Positions 16,088 through 38,893 of a stretch of DNA of 52,252 bases are shown here, one piece after another. The notes under the pieces were generated by a model that saw nothing but the letters and a program-made list of their open reading frames with translations, was not told the origin of the DNA and did not search any database. Within the stretch, counting starts at the first letter, position 1, and the number at the start of each line of letters is the position of its first letter. A program made the translations under genes and the position numbers. This DNA comes from a virus, in the IMG/VR virus record IMGVR_UViG_3300045918_000152, positions 1-52,252 of that record. The stretch is one strand, 5' to 3'.

Positions 16088-19000
16088 TTACGGTCCGATT
16101 CCATACCAATCCCATCCAGGCGGTATCTTCTTCAGAATATCTTCTCTAGTGATAGCGTTAGGTGGATCAATAAGTCCATCATTCCTTGCTTGCTCTACAA
16201 GAGCCCTATAGGATTCGTCGCTAAGTCCTAACTCTCTCATCTTCTTCAACGTATTGAGAATAGTTTCACTCTCTACGGCATCAGCGTAAATCTCGCGTAA
16301 TGCATCCTTGGCCTTACTAACATCACCAATATTGGTAAAGAAAGCATCATGAATAGTGGCAGTCGGAATATTATTCTTTCTACCCCACAATAAGAATTGT
16401 CTAACAATAGACGCATCGTTCATGTGGTTACCATTAACACCCATACCAATTCTAGCGCGGCTAATAGAAGCCTTACCCAACAATGTTGCATCTTTTGCAG
16501 CATCTTCGTAAATATTACGGACCATCCTCTTCGACTCAGGGTCAAAGAATTCAATCGAAGTTTGGATTTTAGGTCTATATCTCTGGAACAGTGTCTTACC
16601 ATCAAAGGTAACCCAGGGAATATCCACTGCCTGAGTTTCTTCAACGTAAGCCTTCGCGGCTGCATTCCAGAACTTAACGAATTTCTGCGTAACAGGTGCA
16701 CGCTCAGCAAGGTGCCTTGACATGATTTCAGAAACTTTCTTGAAATCTTCAGGGCCAACAATACCTACTCGTACATTGCTTAGTCTTTCGACAAAAGTGT
16801 CTACATCGGGGTGGAGACCTGCAGCGTCTCTCAATAGCTCACGCCCCACAGGGACTTCACCATTGATAACATCTGCAATCTCACTTTTTAAATTCTTCAA
16901 TCCAGTGACAACGTTATCAGCACCAATATAGTTTGCATCCTTGATGGACCTATCAATTATATTGTATATACCTCTCGCGTCTTCTCTAGTTACAACTGTA
17001 TAACCCTTCTTTTCAAGTACACTAGCAAACTTAGACTCAATGTTTGCAGCCTGAGTTGCCTTACCGGCACCATAGAAGGAGACCATGTTCTGAGCCTTCG
17101 CAGCTTTCTGAAGGTCAGTCCATGAGATGTTTGCATCTCTTAATGCCTGAATAGCCTGAAATTCAGGGTCAGCCACAGTGTCCATCGCAACCAAGTCGTA
17201 AAGACGATTCTTGCGGGTTGTTGCAAGGACATTACTGTTTACTGCGATACTGCGATCGCGAGTACTAAGGCCGATAATTTGAGCACCAGAACTACTAGCA
17301 TCATTCTCAATCATCAATTTTGATTCAAACCCATCAAAAGCGCCGGCAATATTAAATCTACCACGGGTATATTTATGTGCACGGGCATACTCAAGGGCTA
17401 GCCTTGTGATTTTAGGAACTTCCTCTGCTTCCATCGCTCTCACAAGGGGATGCTCAAGGAAATCTCGAATCTTCTGATCTTTTTGTGTCTTAGCCATCAA
17501 CAATTCGCCGAGAGAACGAATCTTGGATTCATTATCAGCGAAGATCTGAAGACGCCCTGCCTGGGTAAGTGCCTCAGTAGCGGGTCCTATGAGCGATCCT
17601 GTCTGTACCATGAGTTCACGTAATTCGGCAGGGCCAAATTGTCGTGATACGGCACTATTCAGAAAAGGTCTTACAACTTCACCGCCTGTAGGCGAAAGGT
17701 AACCCTGATAGTAGACACGGCCACGACCGTCAATTTGCGCTAAATTAGTAAATGGTACACCACGTTGTCGGTGCCACTTGATTGTTTGCATAAGGCCGTA
17801 GCCCTGATCTCCGCGCTGAATAATCAGTTTGCGGAAATCATTAAGCTCATCCCACTTCTTTGTGTTACCGCGAGGATCTCTGAAGCGAACAACCTCATCC
17901 ATAAATCCTGCAAACTCATCATCAATTTCATACTTCACAGACATTGCATGGTTAAGCATATCAGCAAAGTCGTTATCAACAAGGATCTTGTCGTAATTTT
18001 CTGAGGCGCGCCTAGTAATGATGGCTATCTTGGTGTCATTACCACGAGCATCAAAGTATGTCTTCTTTCCAGGGATCACATAAAGTTTATCCCGATCGCT
18101 GACTACACCGATACGCTGTGCAATAAGAACTTGTCTATTTCTTGACTGGAGCTCGAGCATATCAGGATCAAGAATGGTAACCTCACGACTAACAGTGTCC
18201 CTCCACTCTCCGGAAGGCCTGCCAGTCTCGAGATCGATCGCGGCTCGTCGTGTCTTACCACGGCTAAGTACTCTAATCTTTCCTTGTTTACGAAGGCCCT
18301 CAAGTATTCTCGATCCGTCCGCATGGAAGTCCTGTAGTGTTGGCTTGTGCCATGGAAATGTAGGCTGCCAATTATCACGAAGGCTCTTGCCAATATCAAT
18401 AGCAATACTGTCGTAATCAGTAGCAAAACCACTTGCAACAACCTTCATGGCTCTTGCAATAACACCCACAGCCTTTTCGTTATCTAATGCGCTAGTAAGA
18501 AGCTTGTCCTTGTACGATCGCTTAGAGCTAAGAAAGTTAATCTCCATATCAATGATGCTACGGAAACCTTCTCTTTGCCCTCGCATGAACTCATCAATAA
18601 GGCTTTCGTTAGGAACACCCTTAATGAAGTTCAGAAGGCGGCTACCCCCAGGGACCTTCTTGGCTTCTCCACTAACAAACTTGTCAACTCGTTTAAGAAT
18701 CTCTTTCTTTGTAATCGGAAGTTTAGTCTTGTCAGGATCGGTGAAATAGGCTTTTAAAGGAGCCCTGCCACTAAGATACGAATCCTGAGCGGTACTACGA
18801 CCGTATTTCTCAGCCCATGCAGCGGAATATCTTTGGTTATCAAGCAAATTATCTGCGATGTCCTGGAAGCGGAAGTACTTACCTAAAATTGAAACCTTGG
18901 CGTCTTCTCCAGAGCCATAGGACCCGAATAGCTCAGCACGCTCTCGTGATCGCCTATCCAGAATCCTGGAGACGTTCACAACAGAGAATTGTGCTTCTTT

Positions 19001-20509
19001 ACGTGCGACAGCGCTAAAGTTCTCCCATTGTTCTTTGTTCGTAGCATAACGCTCAAACAGTAGTCGGAGATTTTCAACAACAACGCTTTGGTTATTTACA
19101 CCAATCTTGTCTTCAAGAGATTCGGCGAAAGATTCAATAAACTTCTTTTGGTCTTGTGAAAGGACCTTTGAGTTCTTCATGAAGTCGATACGTTCCTGAT
19201 ACACAGAAAAATCGGGATCATAAAGAAGGGTTGATTTTTGTTCACCAGTAAAAGGATCAAATTGTTGGTTACGCTCATCAAATACGTTATTAGCGCGTAG
19301 ACGAACTGAACGCTTACCAGGGAGACTTGTACCACGGAAGTCTGTAAGAGACATTGCCTGGTTCATCGATTCAGCATCACTGATATACATATCTCGTAGC
19401 TGGTTTTGTATACTCGTAGAGCGCATGATGTCGTAGGGCCTAGATGCCTCCACAATCAGCTCTGCTGCGTTGGCCTTACTGAATGCCCCCTGGAGTGTGG
19501 GGAAGATGCTTGTGCGGGCGTTGTCAAGACGTCTAAGGCGTTCAATACCAATGGCGTCACCGATACTAGTAAAGAATTCCTTGATATCAAGAAGACCCTG
19601 CTCAAACAATCCAACCTTCTCTTCAGTTCCGAGATGGGATACTTTAACATCCATCGGCTGTCTACGAAGCCATCCTGTGTAATTCTCCGCAGCGGGTGCT
19701 GTACCATCAAGAACCTTAGGATCAAGTGATGTGAATCCTAGTTTGAACCTAGAATTCTTCTGCATCTGGGATTTGCTCTTCAGCACAGGAACCATACACG
19801 AACGGCAATTCCAATGGAGAGGGGGGCGATACCTAGTATCACCTAACTCATACACTTCACCATCATGCCTTGAGCAAACCTCACTAGTGCGAGAGTCAAG
19901 TACAGCAGTAAAGCGATACCCGAAGACAATATCCTTGTTGGCATTCATCACCTTATCAAGGGACGATGAGCTAACATTCGTGAGGGAAGTTCTTACAAGA
20001 GCCTTGATCTGATGTTGCGTAACCGAGACAGATTGCGCTACATCAGCAATGATATCCTTCTGGGATTTCTTTGCAGCAGCACCTCTTGCGAGAACACCAC
20101 GAATTCGGATGAGTTCTCCAGTACCAATCCGATTGAATTGTTCTCGTAATGGCCTTCCGAGTCCAATATTAGGACCCACAAGATCAGACGCAATGTCTGC
20201 ACCACGAGGTGGCATATTTACTTTGAAGAAACTTCCTGCAGCCTTCTCGAGGTTATTCGCATGAAAGGTAATAGAGGCATCACTAAAATCATTAATAGCA
20301 CCACGACTATTGCTATGAAGTTCAGTCATCGCCCTCTTAATCTCTTCAGAGGTATCCGCCCTAAGATTCCTATTGAGGATATCCCTAAGTCTCTTTTGAT
20401 GTCTACGCACACTACGATCATTGTTGATGTGCGTTTCCATCTCATAGAGGCGTACGTCAGCAAGATGCTGCACGACTCGATCGTACAAGTCTTGATTTAT
20501 ACCTGACAT
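16088..20509 (-). CDS. Mu gpF-like head morphogenesis protein fused to a T7/N4-type single-subunit RNA polymerase
   Basis: 1473 residues with a clear ATG and AGGAG upstream. Residues about 130-260 form a Mu gpF/SPP1 gp7-type minor head domain with D205-R-T-S-E-V-C212 and H232-W-N-C235-R-S-C238. A helical region of unknown role covers about 270-850. The C-terminal 550 residues carry single-subunit RNA polymerase motifs: DGRGRVYYQGY at about 926-936 (T/DxxGR); NDASSSGAQ with D1070 (motif A, T7 D537); K1138...FYGAG with Y1146 (motif B, T7 K631/Y639, same 8-residue spacing); and IHDAFF with H1387-D1388 (motif C, T7 H811/D812). All catalytic residues are present, so it should be active. Because gpF-type proteins are carried in the head, I infer a virion-packaged polymerase used early in infection. 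It is followed by scaffold and capsid genes. Confidence 0.88.
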   Translation of the reverse strand: MSGINQDLYDRVVQHLADVRLYEMETHINNDRSVRRHQKRLRDILNRNLRADTSEEIKRAMTELHSNSRGAINDFSDASITFHANNLEKAAGSFFKVNMPPRGADIASDLVGPNIGLGRPLREQFNRIGTGELIRIRGVLARGAAAKKSQKDIIADVAQSVSVTQHQIKALVRTSLTNVSSSSLDKVMNANKDIVFGYRFTAVLDSRTSEVCSRHDGEVYELGDTRYRPPLHWNCRSCMVPVLKSKSQMQKNSRFKLGFTSLDPKVLDGTAPAAENYTGWLRRQPMDVKVSHLGTEEKVGLFEQGLLDIKEFFTSIGDAIGIERLRRLDNARTSIFPTLQGAFSKANAAELIVEASRPYDIMRSTSIQNQLRDMYISDAESMNQAMSLTDFRGTSLPGKRSVRLRANNVFDERNQQFDPFTGEQKSTLLYDPDFSVYQERIDFMKNSKVLSQDQKKFIESFAESLEDKIGVNNQSVVVENLRLLFERYATNKEQWENFSAVARKEAQFSVVNVSRILDRRSRERAELFGSYGSGEDAKVSILGKYFRFQDIADNLLDNQRYSAAWAEKYGRSTAQDSYLSGRAPLKAYFTDPDKTKLPITKKEILKRVDKFVSGEAKKVPGGSRLLNFIKGVPNESLIDEFMRGQREGFRSIIDMEINFLSSKRSYKDKLLTSALDNEKAVGVIARAMKVVASGFATDYDSIAIDIGKSLRDNWQPTFPWHKPTLQDFHADGSRILEGLRKQGKIRVLSRGKTRRAAIDLETGRPSGEWRDTVSREVTILDPDMLELQSRNRQVLIAQRIGVVSDRDKLYVIPGKKTYFDARGNDTKIAIITRRASENYDKILVDNDFADMLNHAMSVKYEIDDEFAGFMDEVVRFRDPRGNTKKWDELNDFRKLIIQRGDQGYGLMQTIKWHRQRGVPFTNLAQIDGRGRVYYQGYLSPTGGEVVRPFLNSAVSRQFGPAELRELMVQTGSLIGPATEALTQAGRLQIFADNESKIRSLGELLMAKTQKDQKIRDFLEHPLVRAMEAEEVPKITRLALEYARAHKYTRGRFNIAGAFDGFESKLMIENDASSSGAQIIGLSTRDRSIAVNSNVLATTRKNRLYDLVAMDTVADPEFQAIQALRDANISWTDLQKAAKAQNMVSFYGAGKATQAANIESKFASVLEKKGYTVVTREDARGIYNIIDRSIKDANYIGADNVVTGLKNLKSEIADVINGEVPVGRELLRDAAGLHPDVDTFVERLSNVRVGIVGPEDFKKVSEIMSRHLAERAPVTQKFVKFWNAAAKAYVEETQAVDIPWVTFDGKTLFQRYRPKIQTSIEFFDPESKRMVRNIYEDAAKDATLLGKASISRARIGMGVNGNHMNDASIVRQFLLWGRKNNIPTATIHDAFFTNIGDVSKAKDALREIYADAVESETILNTLKKMRELGLSDESYRALVEQARNDGLIDPPNAITREDILKKIPPGWDWYGIGP

Positions 20510-27844: not shown

Positions 27845-28939
27845 TTAGAACCCCTTGAGAGTTACATACGCAGTCCAGGTAGTAGTCTTGGCGGCAGTTC
27901 CTGTAACTGTAATGTCAGTAAAGCCAGAGGCAGGACTACTAATTGTAATCGTTGCGGCAGTCATGCCAGCAGCCGTTACGTCAGTACCAACTGTACTTGT
28001 TGAAGCAGACGAGAGTGCGCCAGTAGGAAGCAAAACAAATTGTCTACGATAGAGTTGAATTTCTCCAAGAGGACCCTTACCAACAAGGTCGAGCTCAGCA
28101 ATGGCGCCATTGGTAAACATACTAACGGCCATCTTATTTGCATTACCTGTAGCGGCAACCCCTGTCGAAGTAAGCGAAACTGCTGTTGCGCTGGTTGTTG
28201 TAGCATTAAGCAGAACCACTGAAAAAGTCTTATCACCAATGCCAACAGTAAAATTTCTAGCCTGGACAGGGCTACTACCTGTGTTAATTATAACAGAGCC
28301 ATCAACCAGTTGAGCACTATTTCCAATAGCAATACCTGTGTTGACATAGTAAGTGCAGTAAATCCCATCACCAATAATAATGCTTCCATTGGCAGCAAGT
28401 CCTGTAGCAGGACCATAGAAACCTTGCGCTCCACATAGGATAAGGTTGCTAGCTGCTGTGCCACCGCTGCTAAGGTCAATTCTTGTAGTAGGATCACCGA
28501 CACCAAACACTATATTGCCACCTGCATCAATTTGGCCACCTGGAAGATAGGTACCAGTACCTGCAGTTCCTGACAATTGGATAAGTCTAAGATAATCGGT
28601 AGAAACGGCAATTTCGCCTGCATATCCTGCAGTACCTGCGAGTGTGGTGGCAGTTGCAGCGCGAGGTACAATAGCACCGAGCACTACTGTATTACTCTGC
28701 GCATCTACAGTAGTTGTGATTATACGCTCAAGAGCAGTACCATTACTCCGATATCTAGAGTAGGGTGACACATTAAGTGCATATGTTGCGTTCGTATCAG
28801 CAAGCTGAGGGGCTGTAGGAGATGCAATCTGAGCGGCACTAAGAGGAGTAATCCCTGTAGCTACCTGCGCAAAATTAGCATTAACTTTCCGAAGTTCTTC
28901 TTTCTTACTGTCTTTACTGAGAATTGTTTCCATAGCCAT
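27845..28939 (-). CDS. Tail/virion fiber-like protein with NANF anchor motif
   Basis: 364 residues. The N-terminus (DSKKEELRKVNANFAQV) matches the 31063-32514 and 20530-20772 proteins. The remainder is rich in Ala, Thr and Gly with repetitive beta-type segments typical of fiber shafts, ending in a WTAYVTLKGF C-terminus. It lies between the M15 peptidase and the trypsin-like virion protein. An appendage subunit is probable; no enzymatic motif was seen. Confidence 0.55.
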   Translation of the reverse strand: MAMETILSKDSKKEELRKVNANFAQVATGITPLSAAQIASPTAPQLADTNATYALNVSPYSRYRSNGTALERIITTTVDAQSNTVVLGAIVPRAATATTLAGTAGYAGEIAVSTDYLRLIQLSGTAGTGTYLPGGQIDAGGNIVFGVGDPTTRIDLSSGGTAASNLILCGAQGFYGPATGLAANGSIIIGDGIYCTYYVNTGIAIGNSAQLVDGSVIINTGSSPVQARNFTVGIGDKTFSVVLLNATTTSATAVSLTSTGVAATGNANKMAVSMFTNGAIAELDLVGKGPLGEIQLYRRQFVLLPTGALSSASTSTVGTDVTAAGMTAATITISSPASGFTDITVTGTAAKTTTWTAYVTLKGF

Positions 28940-28977
28940 AGTAGGCCTCCTGTTTAAAAGTTAGGCCATCCACTGGC

Positions 28978-31062: not shown

Positions 31063-32514
31063 TTAACGCTTACGAACTTCTGCGCATCCAATATCAATTA
31101 CAGCACCACTCTGGGCTATAACGATAATTCGAGCATTGAAGAAACCAGTCGTAGCAGGAACTACGAAAGGTAAAGTGCAAAGTGTTACAGGTACATTTTG
31201 TGCAGCAGACGAGGGCAATGTATAGGTAGCATCTGCGTAGTGTCCCTTGGCAGTGGAAATCAATACGCTAGCAATGGTATAGAAAGCGAGTTCTAACCGT
31301 ATAGTACCAACTAAATTGTTAAAGTTTTGAGCTGCAATCTCAACAACAAATTCTACTGTATCACCGACATCAATAGATTCAACGCAGAGCAGAGTCTGGG
31401 TGCCATCTATGACGACAGCGCCCACAGTAGTAGACCACCCATTGGTGGGGTCGGCTCCATTCGCAGAAGTTCCAGTAGTAGTGACAATATAATGACGTCC
31501 ATTAGCTATTGTAGGACGAATACGGATATTCACTGCACGAGCAACGTTAGCAGCCCAATCTTGAACATATCCACGGCCCACCTCAAGACCAACAAAGTCT
31601 GTTGCGGCAGTACCAGCAGAAAATGTAAGACGTGTATACTCACCAGTCTTGAAATCAGTCCTTGCGACCTTGCTAATTGCAGCAGCGGCTGCACCATTGG
31701 GCGTAGCTGTCCACGATGTAGGAGGAGTACCCGTCACAAGACCAGAGACAGTTCCGGTAGAACCTACACCAGTAGGATTAACAACGATTTGGCTATAGTT
31801 GTTGGGCTGGCTCGTATAGCGGGGATACTTCGGGATAATTGGATCAAGGACTGCGAATGCAACTCTTGCCACATCCCATCCACCCTGATAATTAGGGTGC
31901 ACACTGTCGTAAGTCTTTGCAGCAAGAAATTGTCCTGTAGCAGGATCTACTACAGCAGAATGACCATCGAAATAGAAGACACCTCGCTGAGTCCCATTCT
32001 GCTCAAGTAAGAATCTATTGTATGTGGCTAAATGCTTTAGTGCTGTAGCTGTAACAATAAGATTACTAGGCAGACTTGTAGAGCCAATAAGAGCAACACC
32101 ACCTGCAGCAAGAGCATCACGAACTGCTTGCCAGCTAGCAATTGTTGCAGCAGCCGTCTTATTACTAAGCGAGGGAGCAATGTCATTGTGACCACACTCC
32201 ATAAATGCAAAGGCAGGACGCGGGTTTAATGCAAGCACCTGAGGAACTTGCTCAAGAAGAACTTGGTCTAGTGTCTTACCACCTACTGCAAACCTACCCA
32301 CCACATTAAGCCTACCACCAAGCAGGGCGTTTAAGTTGGTAAAATAGCCTTGCTGCTGAGTTTGTGTGGCACTGTATCCGTTGGAAATTCTACTATCACC
32401 AATAAGAGCTACCCTATTTGCGGGTGTAGTAAATAGGCCCATACTAAAATTAGCATTGACCTTTCTGATCTCTTCTTGCTTATTATCTCTGTTGTAAATT
32501 GTCTCAAAAGCCAT
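31063..32514 (-). CDS. Virion-associated SGNH hydrolase with NANF anchor motif
   Basis: 483 residues. The N-terminus has DNKQEEIRKVNANFS, the shared anchor motif. Residues about 35-215 form an SGNH esterase: IGDSR with S41 (block I), GGK at 78-80 (block II), CGHND with N110 (block III) and DSVH with D203 and H206 (block V). The rest is beta-rich, compatible with a trimeric or carbohydrate-binding part. An esterase on a virion appendage could de-acetylate a surface glycan such as capsule or O-antigen during adsorption. This is inference from the fold and attachment motif. Confidence 0.75.
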   Translation of the reverse strand: MAFETIYNRDNKQEEIRKVNANFSMGLFTTPANRVALIGDSRISNGYSATQTQQQGYFTNLNALLGGRLNVVGRFAVGGKTLDQVLLEQVPQVLALNPRPAFAFMECGHNDIAPSLSNKTAAATIASWQAVRDALAAGGVALIGSTSLPSNLIVTATALKHLATYNRFLLEQNGTQRGVFYFDGHSAVVDPATGQFLAAKTYDSVHPNYQGGWDVARVAFAVLDPIIPKYPRYTSQPNNYSQIVVNPTGVGSTGTVSGLVTGTPPTSWTATPNGAAAAAISKVARTDFKTGEYTRLTFSAGTAATDFVGLEVGRGYVQDWAANVARAVNIRIRPTIANGRHYIVTTTGTSANGADPTNGWSTTVGAVVIDGTQTLLCVESIDVGDTVEFVVEIAAQNFNNLVGTIRLELAFYTIASVLISTAKGHYADATYTLPSSAAQNVPVTLCTLPFVVPATTGFFNARIIVIAQSGAVIDIGCAEVRKR

Positions 32515-32529
32515 AGCGTACCCCTTAAA

Positions 32530-32918: not shown

Positions 32919-34238
32919 CTAGAATCCAAAACCCTTGTGAACACTCTTTTGACTGCTCCTGACAGGGAATCTATAGTCGGTTATGTATCGAACACCATCG
33001 CTGAAATGTTCGACACCTGTACGTTTATCAATGACAGCCACATTGGGATTAGTCTCAAGCCATACTGTACGCTCAACACTGGAAATAGTCCTAGGGGCGC
33101 GCTTGGGACAGAAGAACATTTCTACTGCGCCATGAGCATTCTTAAGCTTACGATTCACAGCATTAACGCTGTCCACAATAGGAGGATGGGCATCATGTGC
33201 TAAAGTGATAATCTTGTGTGCTTGGAGTATGCTGAAGTCAGTAATACCCACGAGCGACGAGGTTTTCCTTGCACGTCCAGCAGGATCAGGGTACGCGAAT
33301 ATTCGTCTTCCAGGGAAATCTGCGACGAGTCGTTTTGCGAGGGAGTCAGTGTCAGGGTGTCCTGAAAACTCTCCAATGGCATGCATTTGACTTCCTCTAA
33401 TGGCCCAGACGGTACACGCCATAACGCCAACGTTAAAGTCGATTGAGCAATGCACATCCTCACCTTCCTGGAGAGGTAGTAGATTGGGATCAAGATGTAA
33501 TTCGCGATCGAAGCAATAGAATACATTAGCACCGGACTCCTGAAATGAGGCTTCATATTCTCTCGCGAAACGCAGAGGATCAATGTTGCCCTTGATTTTG
33601 TTAATCTCATCTTCACTAAGATAAGGGGAATCCCTATAAGTGTAATGAAAGCTTTTCCAGCGATCAGGCTCGACGTCCTGTCGCAGATACATCTCATGGA
33701 AGTAATCCTTACCACGTGGTGTACTAATGGCGAGGAATCTATGATTACCAGGCCATCGAGTTATCATCGTGGGCTGTATAATACTTTCGAAAGAATCTTG
33801 AAGACCAGGTCGACCTTCCCATGTAGTGACCTCATCGCCTACAACCAGGAATTGGCCGCTACCGCGCATTCTTTCGGAAGCTTCATAAGACCAGAGATTA
33901 AGGGATACATTACCTGGAAACAGGAAGAATCCATCGCGCTCTGAGTGCTTAATTGCGTAAGCCTTGAGATTGAACATTGTTGTAAGTAGGGGCCAATAGA
34001 TATCAGTCACTTGACCGTATGTAGGGGCAACAATACTTACGTTCTTATTTGGAATCCTTGGGGAGAGCCGCATTAAGTAGTCTACGGCCTTTACCGCTAC
34101 AGCACTACCAAGGACTGACTTACCATATCCCCGCGATGCTACTACGCATGCATACCTAGCCACTTCAGGCTGGTCTTTAGGAAACAGGTAACGCATCACC
34201 TGGGACTGGCCCCTGTGAAGAGTTACCATGTTTGCCAT
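32919..34238 (-). CDS. Terminase large subunit
   Basis: 439 residues. Walker A SRGYGKS at 35-41 and Walker B with D135-E136 (LVVGDE) define the packaging ATPase. The C-terminal part has the RNase H-like nuclease pattern with SIDFNVG (near 260), a Pro/Asp-rich YPDPAGRA segment and a final acidic stretch with HFSDGVRY. The enzyme packages and cuts concatemeric DNA into the prohead. The start overlaps the SET gene stop (TAATG). Confidence 0.9.
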   Translation of the reverse strand: MANMVTLHRGQSQVMRYLFPKDQPEVARYACVVASRGYGKSVLGSAVAVKAVDYLMRLSPRIPNKNVSIVAPTYGQVTDIYWPLLTTMFNLKAYAIKHSERDGFFLFPGNVSLNLWSYEASERMRGSGQFLVVGDEVTTWEGRPGLQDSFESIIQPTMITRWPGNHRFLAISTPRGKDYFHEMYLRQDVEPDRWKSFHYTYRDSPYLSEDEINKIKGNIDPLRFAREYEASFQESGANVFYCFDRELHLDPNLLPLQEGEDVHCSIDFNVGVMACTVWAIRGSQMHAIGEFSGHPDTDSLAKRLVADFPGRRIFAYPDPAGRARKTSSLVGITDFSILQAHKIITLAHDAHPPIVDSVNAVNRKLKNAHGAVEMFFCPKRAPRTISSVERTVWLETNPNVAVIDKRTGVEHFSDGVRYITDYRFPVRSSQKSVHKGFGF

Positions 34239-34732
34239 TACTTACTCCGCTGCGTTAGGTTACTAATGAAAAGCTTACGGGACTTATCCCTAATTAGTTG
34301 ATTACCTGACATTGTGCCATAGCAGGTAGAGGATCCACAATAACATTTGTGTGTAGTGAACTCAGTACCTGAGGTTACCTGCAGGGAGTAGTCGTATGTG
34401 ATCTCATCACCCTTGCTAATATTCCTAAGGGCGCAGATAAGAATGCCTGTGGTACTCGTGGCATCCCTCACAAGAATGCACGTGGCGTTAGGGCTACAGC
34501 TATGGTTGATCCTATAGCTACCATTATTAGAAGGTGAAGCGCCATCTACCATGAAGCCATTCTGGAGATCAAACATAGAGACACCCGCCGAGGGGTCTAG
34601 CTGTGTTCTTGTCCAGGCATCTTCGTATGATAGCTCATCGCCATTGTATTGACAGATTGGTGTGCCTGCGGGAATATTTCTTGTGGCAAACACCCCAAGG
34701 CCGTGTATTAAAGAGTTCTTTATTTCAAACAT
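34238..34732 (-). CDS. SET-domain lysine methyltransferase-like protein
   Basis: 164 residues. It begins with a canonical SET N-terminal motif (HGLGVFATRNIPAGTPI, about 10-27). NHSCSPNA at 76-83 and GDEITYDY at 108-115 are the SAM-binding and catalytic motifs. A post-SET zinc-type CYCGSSTCYG segment is at 130-139. All hallmark residues are conserved. Known SET proteins methylate lysine on histones and other proteins; in a phage the target could be a host or virion protein. The gene is translationally coupled to terminase, so it is expressed with late genes. Confidence 0.85.
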   Translation of the reverse strand: MFEIKNSLIHGLGVFATRNIPAGTPICQYNGDELSYEDAWTRTQLDPSAGVSMFDLQNGFMVDGASPSNNGSYRINHSCSPNATCILVRDATSTTGILICALRNISKGDEITYDYSLQVTSGTEFTTHKCYCGSSTCYGTMSGNQLIRDKSRKLFISNLTQRSK

Positions 34733-34743
34733 TTATGCCTTCT

Positions 34744-34790
34744 GATTTGATAAAATAAAGGTGCATGACCCACCACATCCAATAAGGGCA
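34744..34790 (-). terminator. Terminator-like repeat after the tRNA genes
   Basis: The minus strand has a GGTG-ggtcatg-CACC hairpin followed by TTTATTTTATCAAA. It shares TTTGATAAAATAAAGGTG (plus strand 34746-34763) with the copy at 35013-35030, so a terminator unit appears on each side of the tRNA pair. Confidence 0.5.
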
Positions 34791-34818
34791 TGATGGGCGT
34801 CGCGAATGCGACAAGACA

Positions 34819-34894
34819 TGGTGCTACTTCACGGTTTCGAACTGTGGACCTTCCGCTTACAAGGCGGGTGCTCTACCTACTGAGCTAAAGTAGC
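34819..34894 (-). tRNA. tRNA-Thr (anticodon TGT)
   Basis: 76 nt including an encoded CCA. The acceptor GCTACTT pairs with AAGTAGC. The D stem GCTC/GAGC, the anticodon loop CTTGTAA with normal U33, and the T loop TTCGAAA are present. The T stem has one A-C mismatch and the anticodon stem one mismatch at 27-43. The anticodon TGT reads ACA. Confidence 0.85.
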
Positions 34895-34898
34895 AAAT

Positions 34899-34973
34899 TG
34901 GAGCCCTGTACGAGATTCGAACTCGTATCCGCGGAGTGAAGTTCCGCTGATCTGACCATTGATCTAACAGGAC
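34899..34973 (-). tRNA. tRNA-Glu-like (anticodon TTC, C at position 33)
   Basis: 75 nt with encoded CCA. The acceptor GTCCTGT pairs with ACAGGGC (one G-T pair). The D stem GATC/GATC, a T stem ACGAG/CTCGT and a normal T loop are present. The anticodon stem GCGGA/TCCGC encloses ACTTCAC, giving anticodon TTC for Glu with C at the almost universal U33 position. The two tRNAs are separated by only 4 nt. Confidence 0.75.
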
Positions 34974-35001
34974 AATACTTTATTAGATTACACCACAAAA
35001 T

Positions 35002-35048
35002 GTGTAGTGGAATTTGATAAAATAAAGGTGTATGAGCCCCACTACACC
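35002..35048 (-). terminator. Terminator-like region with overlapping alternative hairpins
   Basis: On the minus strand a GGTGTA...TACACC hairpin (35048-35027) is followed by the T-rich TTTATTTTATC. A 9-bp perfect inverted repeat (35002-35010 with 35039-35047) overlaps one arm, so the two structures exclude each other. It separates the accessory gene block from the tRNA genes. Confidence 0.5.
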
Positions 35049-35070
35049 CGAAGGTATAGCGGAGCGAGCA

Positions 35071-35283
35071 TTATTGACGAGTAAAAGGACGTGACTTTCC
35101 TGCGGCCTTGTAGAGACCTTCCTCAAATTCATCCATCAGTTCCCTGAGAGTTTCATAACTTAGTTCAGTGATGGGAATCCCAGGATTTTGGCGAGGACCA
35201 TCTCCCTTATTTCCAGGAGGTTGCCTCACAAAGACAAGCTCAGGGATATTCCAAGGAATCAATTTTACTTTGTGTTCAGCCAT
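35071..35283 (-). CDS. Hypothetical protein
   Basis: 70 residues from the ATG at 35283, preferred over the longer ORF because it matches the usual small overlap with the previous gene (stop at 35276). Pro/Gly-rich middle (PPGNKGDGPRQNPG) and an acidic helix ELRELMDEFEEGLYKAA. No family recognised. Last gene before the tRNA region. Confidence 0.45.
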   Translation of the reverse strand: MAEHKVKLIPWNIPELVFVRQPPGNKGDGPRQNPGIPITELSYETLRELMDEFEEGLYKAAGKSRPFTRQ

Positions 35284-35506
35284 ATTTGTTCTTGACGTAG
35301 TTGTGCATACCAAGATAATCTTCGTAGCTAACAAGCTCGAATAGAATTCCCTGGTGAGTTTTGGTCATCGGCTCATTACGAATGTCCACCGTATAAAACT
35401 TAACACGATAGTGGACACCATTAGAATCATTAGCCGACTTGTAATGAGCGTACCCACTATAGTCAGGCTTCCTTGGGTAATCCCAATTAGTATGACAGCA
35501 GGTCAT
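35276..35506 (-). CDS. Hypothetical protein
   Basis: 76 residues, rich in Tyr and aromatic residues, with no hydrophobic segment. It overlaps the preceding SLOG gene by one nucleotide and the following gene by 8 nt. The beta-type segment VHYRVKFYTVDIRNEPMTK is the only notable feature. No function suggested. Confidence 0.5.
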   Translation of the reverse strand: MTCCHTNWDYPRKPDYSGYAHYKSANDSNGVHYRVKFYTVDIRNEPMTKTHQGILFELVSYEDYLGMHNYVKNKYG

Positions 35507-35931
35507 CAGCTTAGCATATTCTGAATTGTTGCATGATTAAGTTCCACATTAAAATTACGAGGACGAAATGTAAAGACACGCTTCTCGCGAGCCTTCATCC
35601 ATTCCATCATGTGGAGGGTACCTCGCGATTGCCCATCCCAGACTGCAAGGAGGATGTCAGCGTATTCGCCCATTTCAACGTTTCGCTTAAATCCAGCGGA
35701 GTAGTCAAACTTTCCGCTTTCGTTATACCATCGAGCTGGAAATCTTCTAACTCCAACGCCCAGAATTCTTGCAGCTTCTTCTCCGAGGGAGTCAACACCC
35801 TTGGCTCCTCCGCTAACGATCTCGGAAATGTATGATGATTCAGCATTAAGTACTCCCTGCACTCGCTCGATAGCGTCAACGACGATATCAAGAGAGGTAA
35901 TTGATCTTGAACCTGCAACAATTAGTTTCAT
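35506..35931 (-). CDS. SLOG/DUF2493-like nucleotide-binding protein
   Basis: 141 residues. An N-terminal MKLIVAGSRSI beta strand and a glycine loop SGGAKGVDSLGEEAA (about 40-54) with a second DILLAVWDGQSRGT motif (about 92-105) match the DUF2493/YspA-type SLOG superfamily related to DprA. Members are thought to bind nucleotides or derived ligands. Phage copies are frequent, but their role is unknown. Confidence 0.75.
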   Translation of the reverse strand: MKLIVAGSRSITSLDIVVDAIERVQGVLNAESSYISEIVSGGAKGVDSLGEEAARILGVGVRRFPARWYNESGKFDYSAGFKRNVEMGEYADILLAVWDGQSRGTLHMMEWMKAREKRVFTFRPRNFNVELNHATIQNMLS

Positions 35932-35932
35932 A

Positions 35933-36091
35933 CTAATAAAGCTTCACAGGATAATGGTTTACAGGGTCTATTGTAGTAGCAGAAAGCCTATTAAAGGCAT
36001 TATCAGCATCTACAATATTCTTGTAACTAAGTACAGTTGTACACATACAGTCTCGGAATAGCGTAACTGTAGTCACGAGGATCTTATACAT
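35933..36091 (-). CDS. Small hypothetical protein
   Basis: 52 residues encoded at 36091-35933, with AGGAG about 11 nt upstream of the ATG and its stop one base before the SLOG gene start. It contains TLFRDCMCTTVLSYKN and ends in PVKLY. Spacing and the Shine-Dalgarno support a real gene. No family recognised. Confidence 0.5.
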   Translation of the reverse strand: MYKILVTTVTLFRDCMCTTVLSYKNIVDADNAFNRLSATTIDPVNHYPVKLY

Positions 36092-36156
36092 GCGCGCGTA
36101 ATCTCCTAGCTAGAGAGCTTGTGTAGGGTTTGACTCAAATTAATAAATAACTTCGT

Positions 36157-36486
36157 TCATTGATTTTGATTGTGGAGCACACTCGGTTTCTTCGTAAGCA
36201 GCACCTTCGCGGCAGCTATTTCAGCATCCGCAATGCCACCCCAATTATAGCCCTCGCACTTAACCCCAAGCGTGTGTACTGTGGAGGTCTCTTGCAAGTA
36301 CAATTCCCAATTATCTTCAGCACCCACAAGAAGTCGTCCCAATATTTTTCCATTGGCACTAATATAGAACCTGTAATCAATCTCGAGCAATTCTTTCTGA
36401 GTAGCTAGATCAATAACAGAACGGCTGTCATCCTCATTGTTATGCCGAAGCCTATAGTAACCACTCTCAAAATGAAAGTTTTTCAT
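36157..36486 (-). CDS. Hypothetical protein
   Basis: 109 residues with several beta-type segments (GYYRLRH, YRFYISANGKILGRLLV) and an Ala-rich C-terminal helix. There is no membrane segment. It is the last of a run of small genes before a 65-bp gap leading to the small ORF at 36091. No function can be assigned. Confidence 0.5.
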   Translation of the reverse strand: MKNFHFESGYYRLRHNNEDDSRSVIDLATQKELLEIDYRFYISANGKILGRLLVGAEDNWELYLQETSTVHTLGVKCEGYNWGGIADAEIAAAKVLLTKKPSVLHNQNQ

Positions 36487-36492
36487 GCAAGA

Positions 36493-36831
36493 CTACCATT
36501 TATAGCCAAGAATTTTGAAATCAGCCTTGGTTGCATACTGATCGTGCTCACTCATGATATCCCTGAATGTCAGGAACGGCATTTCCTCAGTCCTTTCAAA
36601 GAGAGCCATCACTTCATACTTGTGTTCAAACACAGGTGCTGTGTCTAGATCAGTGCAGTCGCTAACCTTGGACCAGAAACCCAATCCAAGGAAGCTACCC
36701 ATGAATATCCCAAGATCCTTATGGAACACAAATTTCCTGTGGTATCTGCAAAGCTCCCACTCAGCAAACGAGAGCAGGAACTTCTTTGATTGCCTCTCCA
36801 CAGGATCCCAGTCATCACCTAGGGTATACAT
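36493..36831 (-). CDS. Hypothetical protein
   Basis: 112 residues from the ATG at 36831, which overlaps the previous stop as ATGA; the upstream GTG at 36834 is less likely. Aromatic-rich, with FAEWELCRYHRKFVFHKDLGIF and a second acidic helix near the C-terminus. No motif recognised. Confidence 0.5.
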   Translation of the reverse strand: MYTLGDDWDPVERQSKKFLLSFAEWELCRYHRKFVFHKDLGIFMGSFLGLGFWSKVSDCTDLDTAPVFEHKYEVMALFERTEEMPFLTFRDIMSEHDQYATKADFKILGYKW

Positions 36832-37052
36832 CACAGTTCGTGATGCATGTGCGAGAGGAACAAACAGGCCAGTACTGCAGGAGCTCCCTTGCGAGAACCT
36901 TCAGATGGCATTGTTGCCTTGTCGAAGATATCCCACGCGGCATTGCCAATATCGCTGTATGGAAATGTATCCCACGCAGGAAGTGTATGATCACTGTCGA
37001 GACTCATAGCTACTTCAAGAAACGTATTGTTGATTTCTTTACGAGTTGGCAT
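36831..37052 (-). CDS. Hypothetical protein
   Basis: 73 residues, acidic N-terminal half (LDSDHTLPAWDTFPYSD) and a hydrophobic end (AVLACLFLSH). It overlaps the PDZ-like lipoprotein gene by 14 nt. No function suggested. Confidence 0.45.
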   Translation of the reverse strand: MPTRKEINNTFLEVAMSLDSDHTLPAWDTFPYSDIGNAAWDIFDKATMPSEGSRKGAPAVLACLFLSHMHHEL

Positions 37053-37488
37053 AGCAAATCTTTCTTGCTTTGATGTTAAAGAACATTTCCTTACCCTTAC
37101 GAAGTATCCCTACTCGGATTACATCGCCTATTTTGTGCACACTGTCAGGAGTCATTGACATGAACACATCGTTGATTCTTATGCCAGCAGTATACGCAGG
37201 GTATCCTATAGGCGCCTCGCTGATTATTCCTGTTAGGGGACTGTGTACAAATCCTGCACCAATATACTCCCTGTCCTTTCCGCATAGCACACCTAGTGCT
37301 CCTGGAGGACCCTCAGCGTTACCTACAGTGGTATCACCTTGAGGAGGTACGAGGGTCACGCCAACAACATCATACTTTGGAGTGAGAACAACATTTGCGG
37401 TAGGAGTGCAGCTTACAATTATTGAAAGTAGTATTGCAATGTGCACCGCGGGGCTTATCAAGCCAATGAGTTTAGAGTTGTGAGCCAC
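37039..37488 (-). CDS. Putative PDZ-domain lipoprotein
   Basis: 149 residues. A hydrophobic signal (about 7-26) is followed by a lipobox-like LSIIVSC with C27, suggesting export and lipid attachment. Residues about 75-145 resemble a PDZ domain: ISEAPIGYPAYTAGIRINDVFMSM with the typical AxxAGI/NDVI pattern, then VIRVGILRKGKEMFFNIKAR. A phage-encoded envelope protein with a PDZ fold could bind a periplasmic protease or its substrates. Function in the phage is not known. Confidence 0.65.
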   Translation of the reverse strand: MAHNSKLIGLISPAVHIAILLSIIVSCTPTANVVLTPKYDVVGVTLVPPQGDTTVGNAEGPPGALGVLCGKDREYIGAGFVHSPLTGIISEAPIGYPAYTAGIRINDVFMSMTPDSVHKIGDVIRVGILRKGKEMFFNIKARKICYANS

Positions 37489-37690
37489 CGCTGATACTCT
37501 TGCAAGCTACGGCAGTGTTGTCGATCACAACAGGACTAGGATTATTGAGACAATACCTGTGGTAAAGTCGGAGACCAGCCTCTTCACCTCTGCTATAGGA
37601 CTGACTTGCAGTAACACAAACAAAGGCGATTGTGGCAAGCACACCGGTAGTCCAGCGGAGCCACCTAGGAACAGATACATTAATCATCAT
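37472..37690 (-). CDS. Small membrane-anchored or secreted protein
   Basis: 72 residues. The start WLRWTTGVLATIAFVCVTAS forms one membrane segment or uncleaved signal near residues 9-28, and the rest would face the periplasm with two Cys residues. The start overlaps the previous stop (ATGA). Located next to the PDZ-like lipoprotein, so an envelope role is likely. Confidence 0.5.
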   Translation of the reverse strand: MMINVSVPRWLRWTTGVLATIAFVCVTASQSYSRGEEAGLRLYHRYCLNNPSPVVIDNTAVACKSISGGSQL

Positions 37691-37980
37691 GATTGGATTA
37701 TCTCGATTAGATCAACAATTTCAGGGCTATACATTCTCAATTTGTCGGTTTCCCCTGCGAGGTGATATATTGCCTCACGGGGTTTACCCTCCTGGAAAGC
37801 TACTCTTGCCAGACGTACACAAGTGTACACAGCAAGCTCATGGTTGTGAATTAGCAACTCTACACGCTTAAGAGCAAACTCCTTGAGTTCATTCTGGATG
37901 GCAATAGCCTTACCCTCAAGCTCATTAAGGCGAGAATTTTTGAGGTCCTCAATTTTCCAGTACACATCAGCTATTTTCAT
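37687..37980 (-). CDS. Hypothetical coiled protein
   Basis: 97 residues from the ATG at 37980, which gives an ATGA overlap. The first half is a helical heptad-like stretch (LNELEGKAIAIQNELKEFALKRVELL). No recognised domain. It sits upstream of the membrane-anchored protein. Confidence 0.5.
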   Translation of the reverse strand: MKIADVYWKIEDLKNSRLNELEGKAIAIQNELKEFALKRVELLIHNHELAVYTCVRLARVAFQEGKPREAIYHLAGETDKLRMYSPEIVDLIEIIQS

Positions 37981-38201
37981 GGTCGATACCACCCACAATG
38001 ACCAAGATTATCACAATCGAATCGTGTACCCTGTGGAAATCTCGGAGTTGCAGGACGATTCTCAATCTCATCAATCCTTGTGATTCCCGCACTATCTCCA
38101 AGGAGAGCAGCGGCGCGATCCCATCCTGATTCGACTACACAACGGTATCGATACTTATTCCAGGATGGCATCACAAGGTAGAACACATATAACCTACTCA
38201 T
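37977..38201 (-). CDS. Hypothetical protein
   Basis: 74 residues with an aromatic N-terminal part (LYVFYLVMPSWNKYRYR) and a C-terminal DCDNLGHCGWYRP segment with two close Cys residues. No function suggested. Confidence 0.45.
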   Translation of the reverse strand: MSRLYVFYLVMPSWNKYRYRCVVESGWDRAAALLGDSAGITRIDEIENRPATPRFPQGTRFDCDNLGHCGWYRP

Positions 38202-38421
38202 TAGGGATGCACTCCTTGCCGATGCACTCGCGGCAGAATGCGAACATCACACCAGTGTAATTCCCGTCGTACTCCATGTGGGCTCGACTGAACGAATGCC
38301 CAAACTGAACAAAGAAAGTCCCTGTCGCACCATCCTCAGAATCCACAACATAGTGGTCACATCGATTGCACCAAAATTGGGCTTTCTTTGTGGGTGTGTA
38401 GGGCTCAAGATCAATTTTCAT
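38194..38421 (-). CDS. Hypothetical protein with CxxC pairs (possible zinc ribbon)
   Basis: 75 residues. CNRC at 18-21 and CREC near the C-terminus, separated by a beta segment, could bind one zinc ion. Such small zinc-ribbon proteins are common in phages, often with nucleic-acid or protein-contact roles, but nothing here gives a target. Stop overlaps the next start. Confidence 0.5.
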   Translation of the reverse strand: MKIDLEPYTPTKKAQFWCNRCDHYVVDSEDGATGTFFVQFGHSFSRAHMEYDGNYTGVMFAFCRECIGKECIPNE

Positions 38422-38461
38422 GCTGCGCTCATTTGGTTAAGCGTTGCGGACGCGAACAAGA

Positions 38462-38893
38462 CTAGTCCGTAAGAAGGATACCCATGGGTTCAATCTCAGG
38501 AGGTGTCTCACTACGATCAGGAACTTGATTATAGCCGTATTTCAATAGATCATTACTAATTTTCTGTTGAAGAGTAAGGAGCTGTGCAATGGCAATCATT
38601 GAAGGTTTGCTAGACATCATCACTTGATCGATAATTGTCTGGACCTCATCAAACTTCTTTACCATCGTCTCAATAGGATCAAAGCCAAGTGCTGAAAGCT
38701 TAGCCGCTGATTCCCTTGCGTTAATAAGTGTGGACTTTGTAGAGCGTGCCCATGTAGAGCGTGCCTTCACATACTCCACATCAAACAATCCCTTCTTGTC
38801 TTCCTCAACATGCTTATGTTCAGCAAGAGGAATGTCAGGGATAGTCTTACGAGGGTTCTGGCTGTCTAGCGCAGCGGAGCAAGCATCAGTCAT
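38462..38893 (-). CDS. Possible terminase small subunit
   Basis: 143 residues, mostly helical, with ARESAAKLSALGFDPIETM (about 56-74) and a LLTLQQKISNDLLKYGYNQVP segment (about 108-128). The pattern 'LGFDPI...QK..NDLLKYGY.RVP' recalls small terminase/maturase-like proteins. The gene overlaps the coiled-coil membrane gene by 4 nt. It lies some 4 kb upstream of the large terminase. I treat this as a tentative assignment. Confidence 0.4.
   Translation of the reverse strand: MTDACSAALDSQNPRKTIPDIPLAEHKHVEEDKKGLFDVEYVKARSTWARSTKSTLINARESAAKLSALGFDPIETMVKKFDEVQTIIDQVMMSSKPSMIAIAQLLTLQQKISNDLLKYGYNQVPDRSETPPEIEPMGILLTD

Follow-up and report, generated by a model that had tools for sequence, protein, structure and literature searches.

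Work on SET enzymes has dealt almost exclusively with histone methylation and with pathogen effectors, and few natural targets inside bacteria are known for stand-alone bacterial SET proteins. Among the described enzymes, cpnSET acts on the chlamydial histone-like protein Hc1 (PMC10117894), Go1-SET acts on archaeal MC1-alpha (PMC3980110), and vSET is packaged by PBCV-1 and acts on host chromatin (PMC7019647). SET genes of tailed phages are rare but already known, from cyanophages and from uncultured Caudovirales, whose SET proteins are listed in BFVD; we found no characterised phage SET enzyme or functional study of one in the open-access literature. Here we analyse a SET gene in the IMG/VR record IMGVR_UViG_3300045918_000152, of which all 52,252 nucleotides were examined (hereafter referred to as the window) and which belongs to a Naomviridae-related siphovirus.

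A SET/post-SET gene overlapping the large terminase gene

The minus-strand ORF at 34238–34732 starts with ATG and encodes a 164-residue protein, a predicted SAM-dependent protein (lysine) methyltransferase. The initial annotation had called it a SET/post-SET gene from its motifs NHSCSPNA (residues 76–83), GDEITYDY (residues 108–115) and CxCGxxxCxG (CYCGSSTCYG, residues 130–139), each of which is indeed intact. Residues 11–116 matched the Pfam SET family (PF00856) over profile positions 1–105 of 105, with an E-value of 6.1e-21 and 75.3 bits (cut-off, 22.4 bits), and a phmmer search of PDB sequences matched human KMT2 SET domains (best E-value, 2.9e-16). An AlphaFold2 model computed from an alignment of 73 sequences (pLDDT 81.5, pTM 0.76) has the fold of SET-domain methyltransferases, its top Foldseek match in the PDB being the MLL1 SET domain (E-value 2.8e-12, TM about 0.70–0.72). 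The hallmark residues of PF00856 are present (G11/G13, N76-H77-S78-C79 and the catalytic Y115 of ExxxDY), as are the post-SET zinc cysteines of the KMT2-like class (C130, C132 and C137, plus the NHSC cysteine C79). The SET/post-SET assignment is far above chance. No PHROGs family matched the protein, and the G+C content of the gene is 45.5%, that of the window 45.3%.

Downstream lies the gene for the large terminase subunit, TerL (32919–34238, minus strand, 439 residues; Terminase_6N 7.1e-8, phrog_2 4.9e-30). This TerL is 53% identical to its counterpart in DSS3_PM1 and also has a relative in EBPR siphovirus 1. The stop/start coupling of the two genes was confirmed: the TAA of SET and the ATG of TerL share one base (TAATG), with GGAG just 5′ of them. 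SET has a ribosome-binding site of its own (AGAAGG 5′ of its ATG), and SET and TerL are probably translated together. The term ‘late operon’, which had also been applied to the locus, does not follow from the gene arrangement, since the strand that carries SET also carries almost every clear gene in the 52-kb record.

The SET gene lies in a variable slot ahead of TerL

We compared the locus with its TerL relatives, comprising DSS3_PM1, EBPR siphovirus 1 and 80 more taken from IMG/VR. In most of these relatives (L150–L232) TerL is preceded by a conserved gene, here called the FDPIE gene, which in the window lies at 38462–38893 (minus strand) and which phmmer matched in about 50 TerL-bearing relatives (best E-value, 5.3e-16). 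Pfam and PHROGs searches with its product gave no match; the gene is a candidate for, and probably encodes, the small terminase subunit of the lineage. From the FDPIE gene to TerL the relatives have a median of 620 nt, versus 4,223 nt in the window, where this stretch (34239–38461, minus strand) contains SET, two tRNA genes, a YspA/SLOG-like protein gene (35506–35931) and about ten small ORFs that matched no family. Immediately upstream of TerL in the relatives, the ORFs formed 24 sequence clusters across 67 loci, a count based on a simple ORF call that includes near-duplicate contigs and the FDPIE gene itself; GIY-YIG-like and membrane proteins were recognised by eye among their products. One relative, L214, has a tRNA-Thr(TGT) gene, with the same anticodon as that of the window, in the same slot. 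Judged from the profile searches and the comparison with relatives, the stretch bordered upstream by the FDPIE gene and downstream by TerL is best read as a variable cargo slot.

The SET gene is not kept beside TerL in related phages: it was found in none of the 50 TerL-related phage records tested, many of which are fragments. Because of this absence, the variable content of the slot and the tRNA-Thr gene of L214, we regard SET as an accessory gene. A packaging or capsid role had initially been read from its position, and the enzyme might methylate a structural or packaging protein of the phage (capsid, portal or terminase), whence its coupling to TerL. The one-base overlap, with its probable joint translation, and the presence of phage structural genes among those downstream are consistent with such a target; by binding the dose of SET to a packaging gene, the overlap also counts against an accessory status. 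However, the TerL relatives lack SET despite having packaging genes in common, different small genes occupy the same slot elsewhere, and, in the 12 other viral contigs that encode both SET and TerL, the two genes are separated by about 17 kb or more. Stop/start overlaps are, moreover, common between unrelated neighbouring phage genes, and the best reading of the SET–TerL overlap is that it serves to get SET expressed. A structural or packaging target thus appears unlikely to us.

Variable slots often hold anti-defence genes, and the location of SET in one of them would suit an enzyme that inactivates a defence or restriction protein of the host by modifying it. Our literature searches, however, found no paper giving SET proteins such a role, and we consider it very improbable. 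Our preferred reading is still that of an accessory gene acting on another kind of target, as set out below.

The slot has further features. The genes for tRNA-Thr (TGT; 34819–34894, minus strand; Rfam RF00005, 64.3 bits) and tRNA-Glu (TTC; 34899–34973, minus strand; 55.4 bits for the same family), both found by ARAGORN, are flanked by two hairpins, each followed by a 27-nt motif (TCATRCACCTTTATTTTATCAAAT core), at 34745–34798 and 35012–35064 (minus strand), which also precede SET. The first 27-nt copy (34745–34771) stands 3′ of a predicted hairpin (fold z −1.4), just 5′ of the SET ribosome-binding site, and the second (35012–35038) 3′ of a strong hairpin (−23 kcal/mol; fold z −6.4), 5′ of tRNA-Glu. 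A repeat search gave 93% identity between the 27-nt copies, the only two in the window; the hairpins themselves differ in sequence, the 27-nt motif being what they have in common. A terminator scan of the pair found nothing, and the element could be a promoter, an RNA-processing or a recombination element.

In nine relatives (L153, L155, L164, L174, L175 and others), a small lysine-rich protein (GVSGYNKPKRTPGHPTKSHIVVAKV...) stands at the place of SET before TerL. We considered this protein as a SET substrate and rejected it, its homologue being absent from the window. In another relative, DSS3_VP1 (L152, NC_055826; 4390–6410), the TerL gene is split in two by an ORF that carries the annotation endonuclease VII, an arrangement that resembles an intron or the insertion of a homing gene.

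Related SET genes and the origin of the phage gene

A tblastn search with the phage SET protein against 50,697 phage records gave no match at E ≤ 1e-3, in keeping with the initial view that a complete SET gene next to packaging genes is uncommon. At E-values up to 10, the yield was limited to the SET gene of one cyanophage, one SET-like ORF from a phage of 735 kb and matches at chance level. Viral contigs scanned with a single sequence gave no relative; a scan with an alignment as the query found 61 IMG/VR contigs that encode a related SET protein; no close relative of the window gene was found. TerL was recognisable in 12 of the 41 SET-bearing IMG/VR records tested, and these are therefore likely to be tailed phages. 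Another, shorter SET gene is present in seven Synechococcus phage records. In the marine viral contigs L022 and L025, and L012 and L016, a different SET gene lies near ORFs that by eye are oxygenase-like (2-oxoglutarate/iron) or carbamoyltransferase-like.

The closest sequences were short stand-alone SET proteins of Betaproteobacteria, mostly 34–43% identical to the phage protein and with the same CxCG...C.GTM ending. In our trees, the phage SET protein formed a long branch in a post-SET class that contains the betaproteobacterial short SET proteins and human KMT2A. The free tree placed it beside a protein from a Myxococcota MAG (84/85), both branches being long, and grouping with the Betaproteobacteria was not rejected by the AU test (p 0.162). 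We considered a eukaryotic origin and set it aside, since identity is higher to the best bacterial protein (43%) than to human KMT2 (31%), although the tree contained only one eukaryotic sequence. Since viral SET proteins occur in at least two other lineages of the tree, one of them beside Verrucomicrobiota proteins, phages seem to have acquired SET genes on more than one occasion. As a hint to the target, we looked for a conserved gene neighbour among 80 bacterial SET relatives and found none that was general; in subsets, inspection by eye suggested topoisomerase III or dnaA/dnaN-like genes nearby.

The SET domain is complete but its active site is altered

We aligned 117 sequences to compare the active site. 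GxG, Tyr29, N76-H77, Tyr113, Tyr115 (the catalytic residue) and the four zinc cysteines are all retained in the phage protein, which differs from its relatives at three places: position 52 is Ser in the phage protein and Phe, Tyr or Trp in 99 of 112 relatives; a one-residue insertion ahead of NHSC (Ser72/Arg74) shifts an Arg/Lys that is present in 94 of 115; and position 83 is Ala instead of the Cys found in 110 of 115. Of the tyrosine tetrad, which corresponds to Y29, S52, Y113 and Y115 in the phage protein, three of four residues are thus present; most bacterial relatives also lack the second tyrosine and have Phe instead. The description ‘canonical, all intact’ therefore holds for the quoted motifs and fails for the active site as a whole, for which ‘complete, with an altered active site’ is, on the alignment, the better wording.

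With Phe54 as the anchor of the alignment rather than a solved structure, Ser52 is equivalent to MLL1 Y3883, MLL3 Y69 and yeast Set1 Tyr993, and Tyr29 to MLL1 Y3858 and SET7/9 Y245; Set1 Y993 and R1013 were assigned to Ser52 and Ser72 by spacing. The KMT2A residue numbers were counted backwards from the C terminus, which we take to be 3969, and this numbering fits the mutations named in the titles of PDB entries (N3861I, Q3867L and C3882S). We also considered whether Ser52 occupies the position of SET7/9 Tyr245, and rejected this, as Tyr245 aligns with Tyr29, which is kept.

In MLL3, where the tetrad consists of Y44, Y69, Y128 and Y130, Y69 touches the SAM carboxylate (PMC9499395). The yeast Set1 mutant Y993A retains 49% of H3K4me1, 6% of me2 and no me3, and R1013H retains me1 and has 2% of me3 (PMC3585878). 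Because Ser52 replaces the SAM-carboxylate tyrosine and the pre-NHSC Arg is displaced, and these Set1 mutants keep me1 and lose me3, we predict that the phage protein is an active, mainly monomethylating enzyme.

The same substitutions, Ser52, the insertion before NHSC and Ala83, together with the long branch, could also mark a protein that no longer acts on peptides, either a small-molecule methyltransferase or a weak or dead remnant. BurB of Burkholderia thailandensis, a stand-alone SET enzyme that methylates free methionine, shows that metabolites can be substrates of such proteins (PMC12542666). Yet the phage ORF is full-length and has a ribosome-binding site, it keeps Tyr115, the NH pair, GxG and all four zinc cysteines, and loss of the equivalent tyrosine in Set1 still leaves about half of the monomethylation (PMC3585878). 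No BurB-like gene set was recognised among the annotated parts of the window. We judge this alternative improbable, and continue with the prediction of a monomethylating protein methyltransferase.

Other features of the window

The minus-strand gene at 16088–20509 encodes a protein of 1473 residues. Its N-terminal part is a Mu F/SPP1 gp7 head domain (PF04233, TIGR01641), and its C-terminal part matches the single-subunit, T7-like RNA polymerases (PF00940, 2.2e-10). C-terminal stretches homologous to its own (34–57%) occur in DSS3_PM1, in DSS3_VP1 and, in pieces, in EBPR siphovirus 1, in genes called head proteins. The 1473-residue protein may be a fusion of a head protein with an RNA polymerase that is carried in the virion. 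A 71-nt direct repeat with 75% identity is present at 28871–28941 and 32446–32516. The genes at 27845–28939 and 31063–32514 encode related N-termini (METILSKDSKKEELRKVNANF and FETIYNRDNKQEEIRKVNANF, respectively), perhaps a shared virion-attachment tip.

Proposed function

We propose, as a reading that is reasonably likely though far from assured, that the gene encodes an accessory (‘moron’) KMT2-like SET methyltransferase of bacterial origin, carried in the slot, that monomethylates and whose most likely target is a host lysine. A short SET/post-SET gene of the bacterial type would have been taken up from bacteria into the slot between the candidate small-terminase gene and TerL. Its product would bind SAM via the GxG and NHS motifs; Cys79, Cys130, Cys132 and Cys137 would form the post-SET zinc site and thereby complete the lysine channel, in which Tyr29, Tyr113 and Tyr115 would orient the lysine amine. 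With Ser52 and the displaced pre-NHSC Arg, the enzyme would add mainly one methyl group.

A host protein is a possible target and our preferred guess; the host protein would be methylated during infection, to the advantage of the phage, with nucleoid or translation proteins as natural candidates. A phage protein would be the second choice, and the window offers no conspicuous lysine-rich candidate for a substrate. The more specific proposal, that a tailed phage places monomethyl-lysine on host nucleoid or translation proteins through a KMT2-like SET enzyme, as a bacterial counterpart of vSET, is speculative and would surprise us somewhat if correct. A small phage SET protein encoded beside the packaging motor gene offers a compact route to a target, with one protein, one infection and one methyl-lysine map. 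Monomethylation is also a sharp prediction from the changes at Ser52 and the Arg, and it tests ideas on how SET enzymes control the number of methyl groups.

Comparison with known systems

vSET of PBCV-1 resembles the phage protein as a small viral SET methyltransferase, but its virus infects a eukaryote (chlorella), its target is histone H3K27 and it is packaged in the virion, whereas a bacterial host has no histone H3. The SET proteins of other IMG/VR viral contigs and of uncultured Caudovirales (UniProt) are likewise phage-encoded and in many cases have a post-SET region; they belong to at least two other lineages, one of them beside Verrucomicrobiota proteins, and are not near TerL. The cultured tailed Synechococcus phages Sf-CH1b, S-B05, S-B43, RN05-S, RB11-B and SynMITS9220M01 also have SET genes (annotated or not), but these encode proteins of about 123 residues without post-SET, with an E-value of about 3 against the window protein, and adjoin PurM and baseplate genes. 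Among proteins of solved structure, KMT2A–D (MLL1–4) come closest in both sequence and fold, and the phage protein shares with them three of the four active-site tyrosines and the zinc cysteines; they differ in being 31% identical, in being components of large complexes and in having the fourth tyrosine (MLL1 Y3883, MLL3 Y69) where the phage has Ser52. The short betaproteobacterial SET proteins (Polynucleobacter, Alcaligenes, Bordetella and Burkholderia/Paraburkholderia), which unlike the phage gene are encoded on chromosomes and plasmids, mostly have Phe (HTF.F) for Ser52 and Cys for Ala83 and lack the insertion before INHSC, but they are like the phage protein in length, in their combination of SET with a CxCG...C.GTM post-SET and in sequence, with up to 43% identity.
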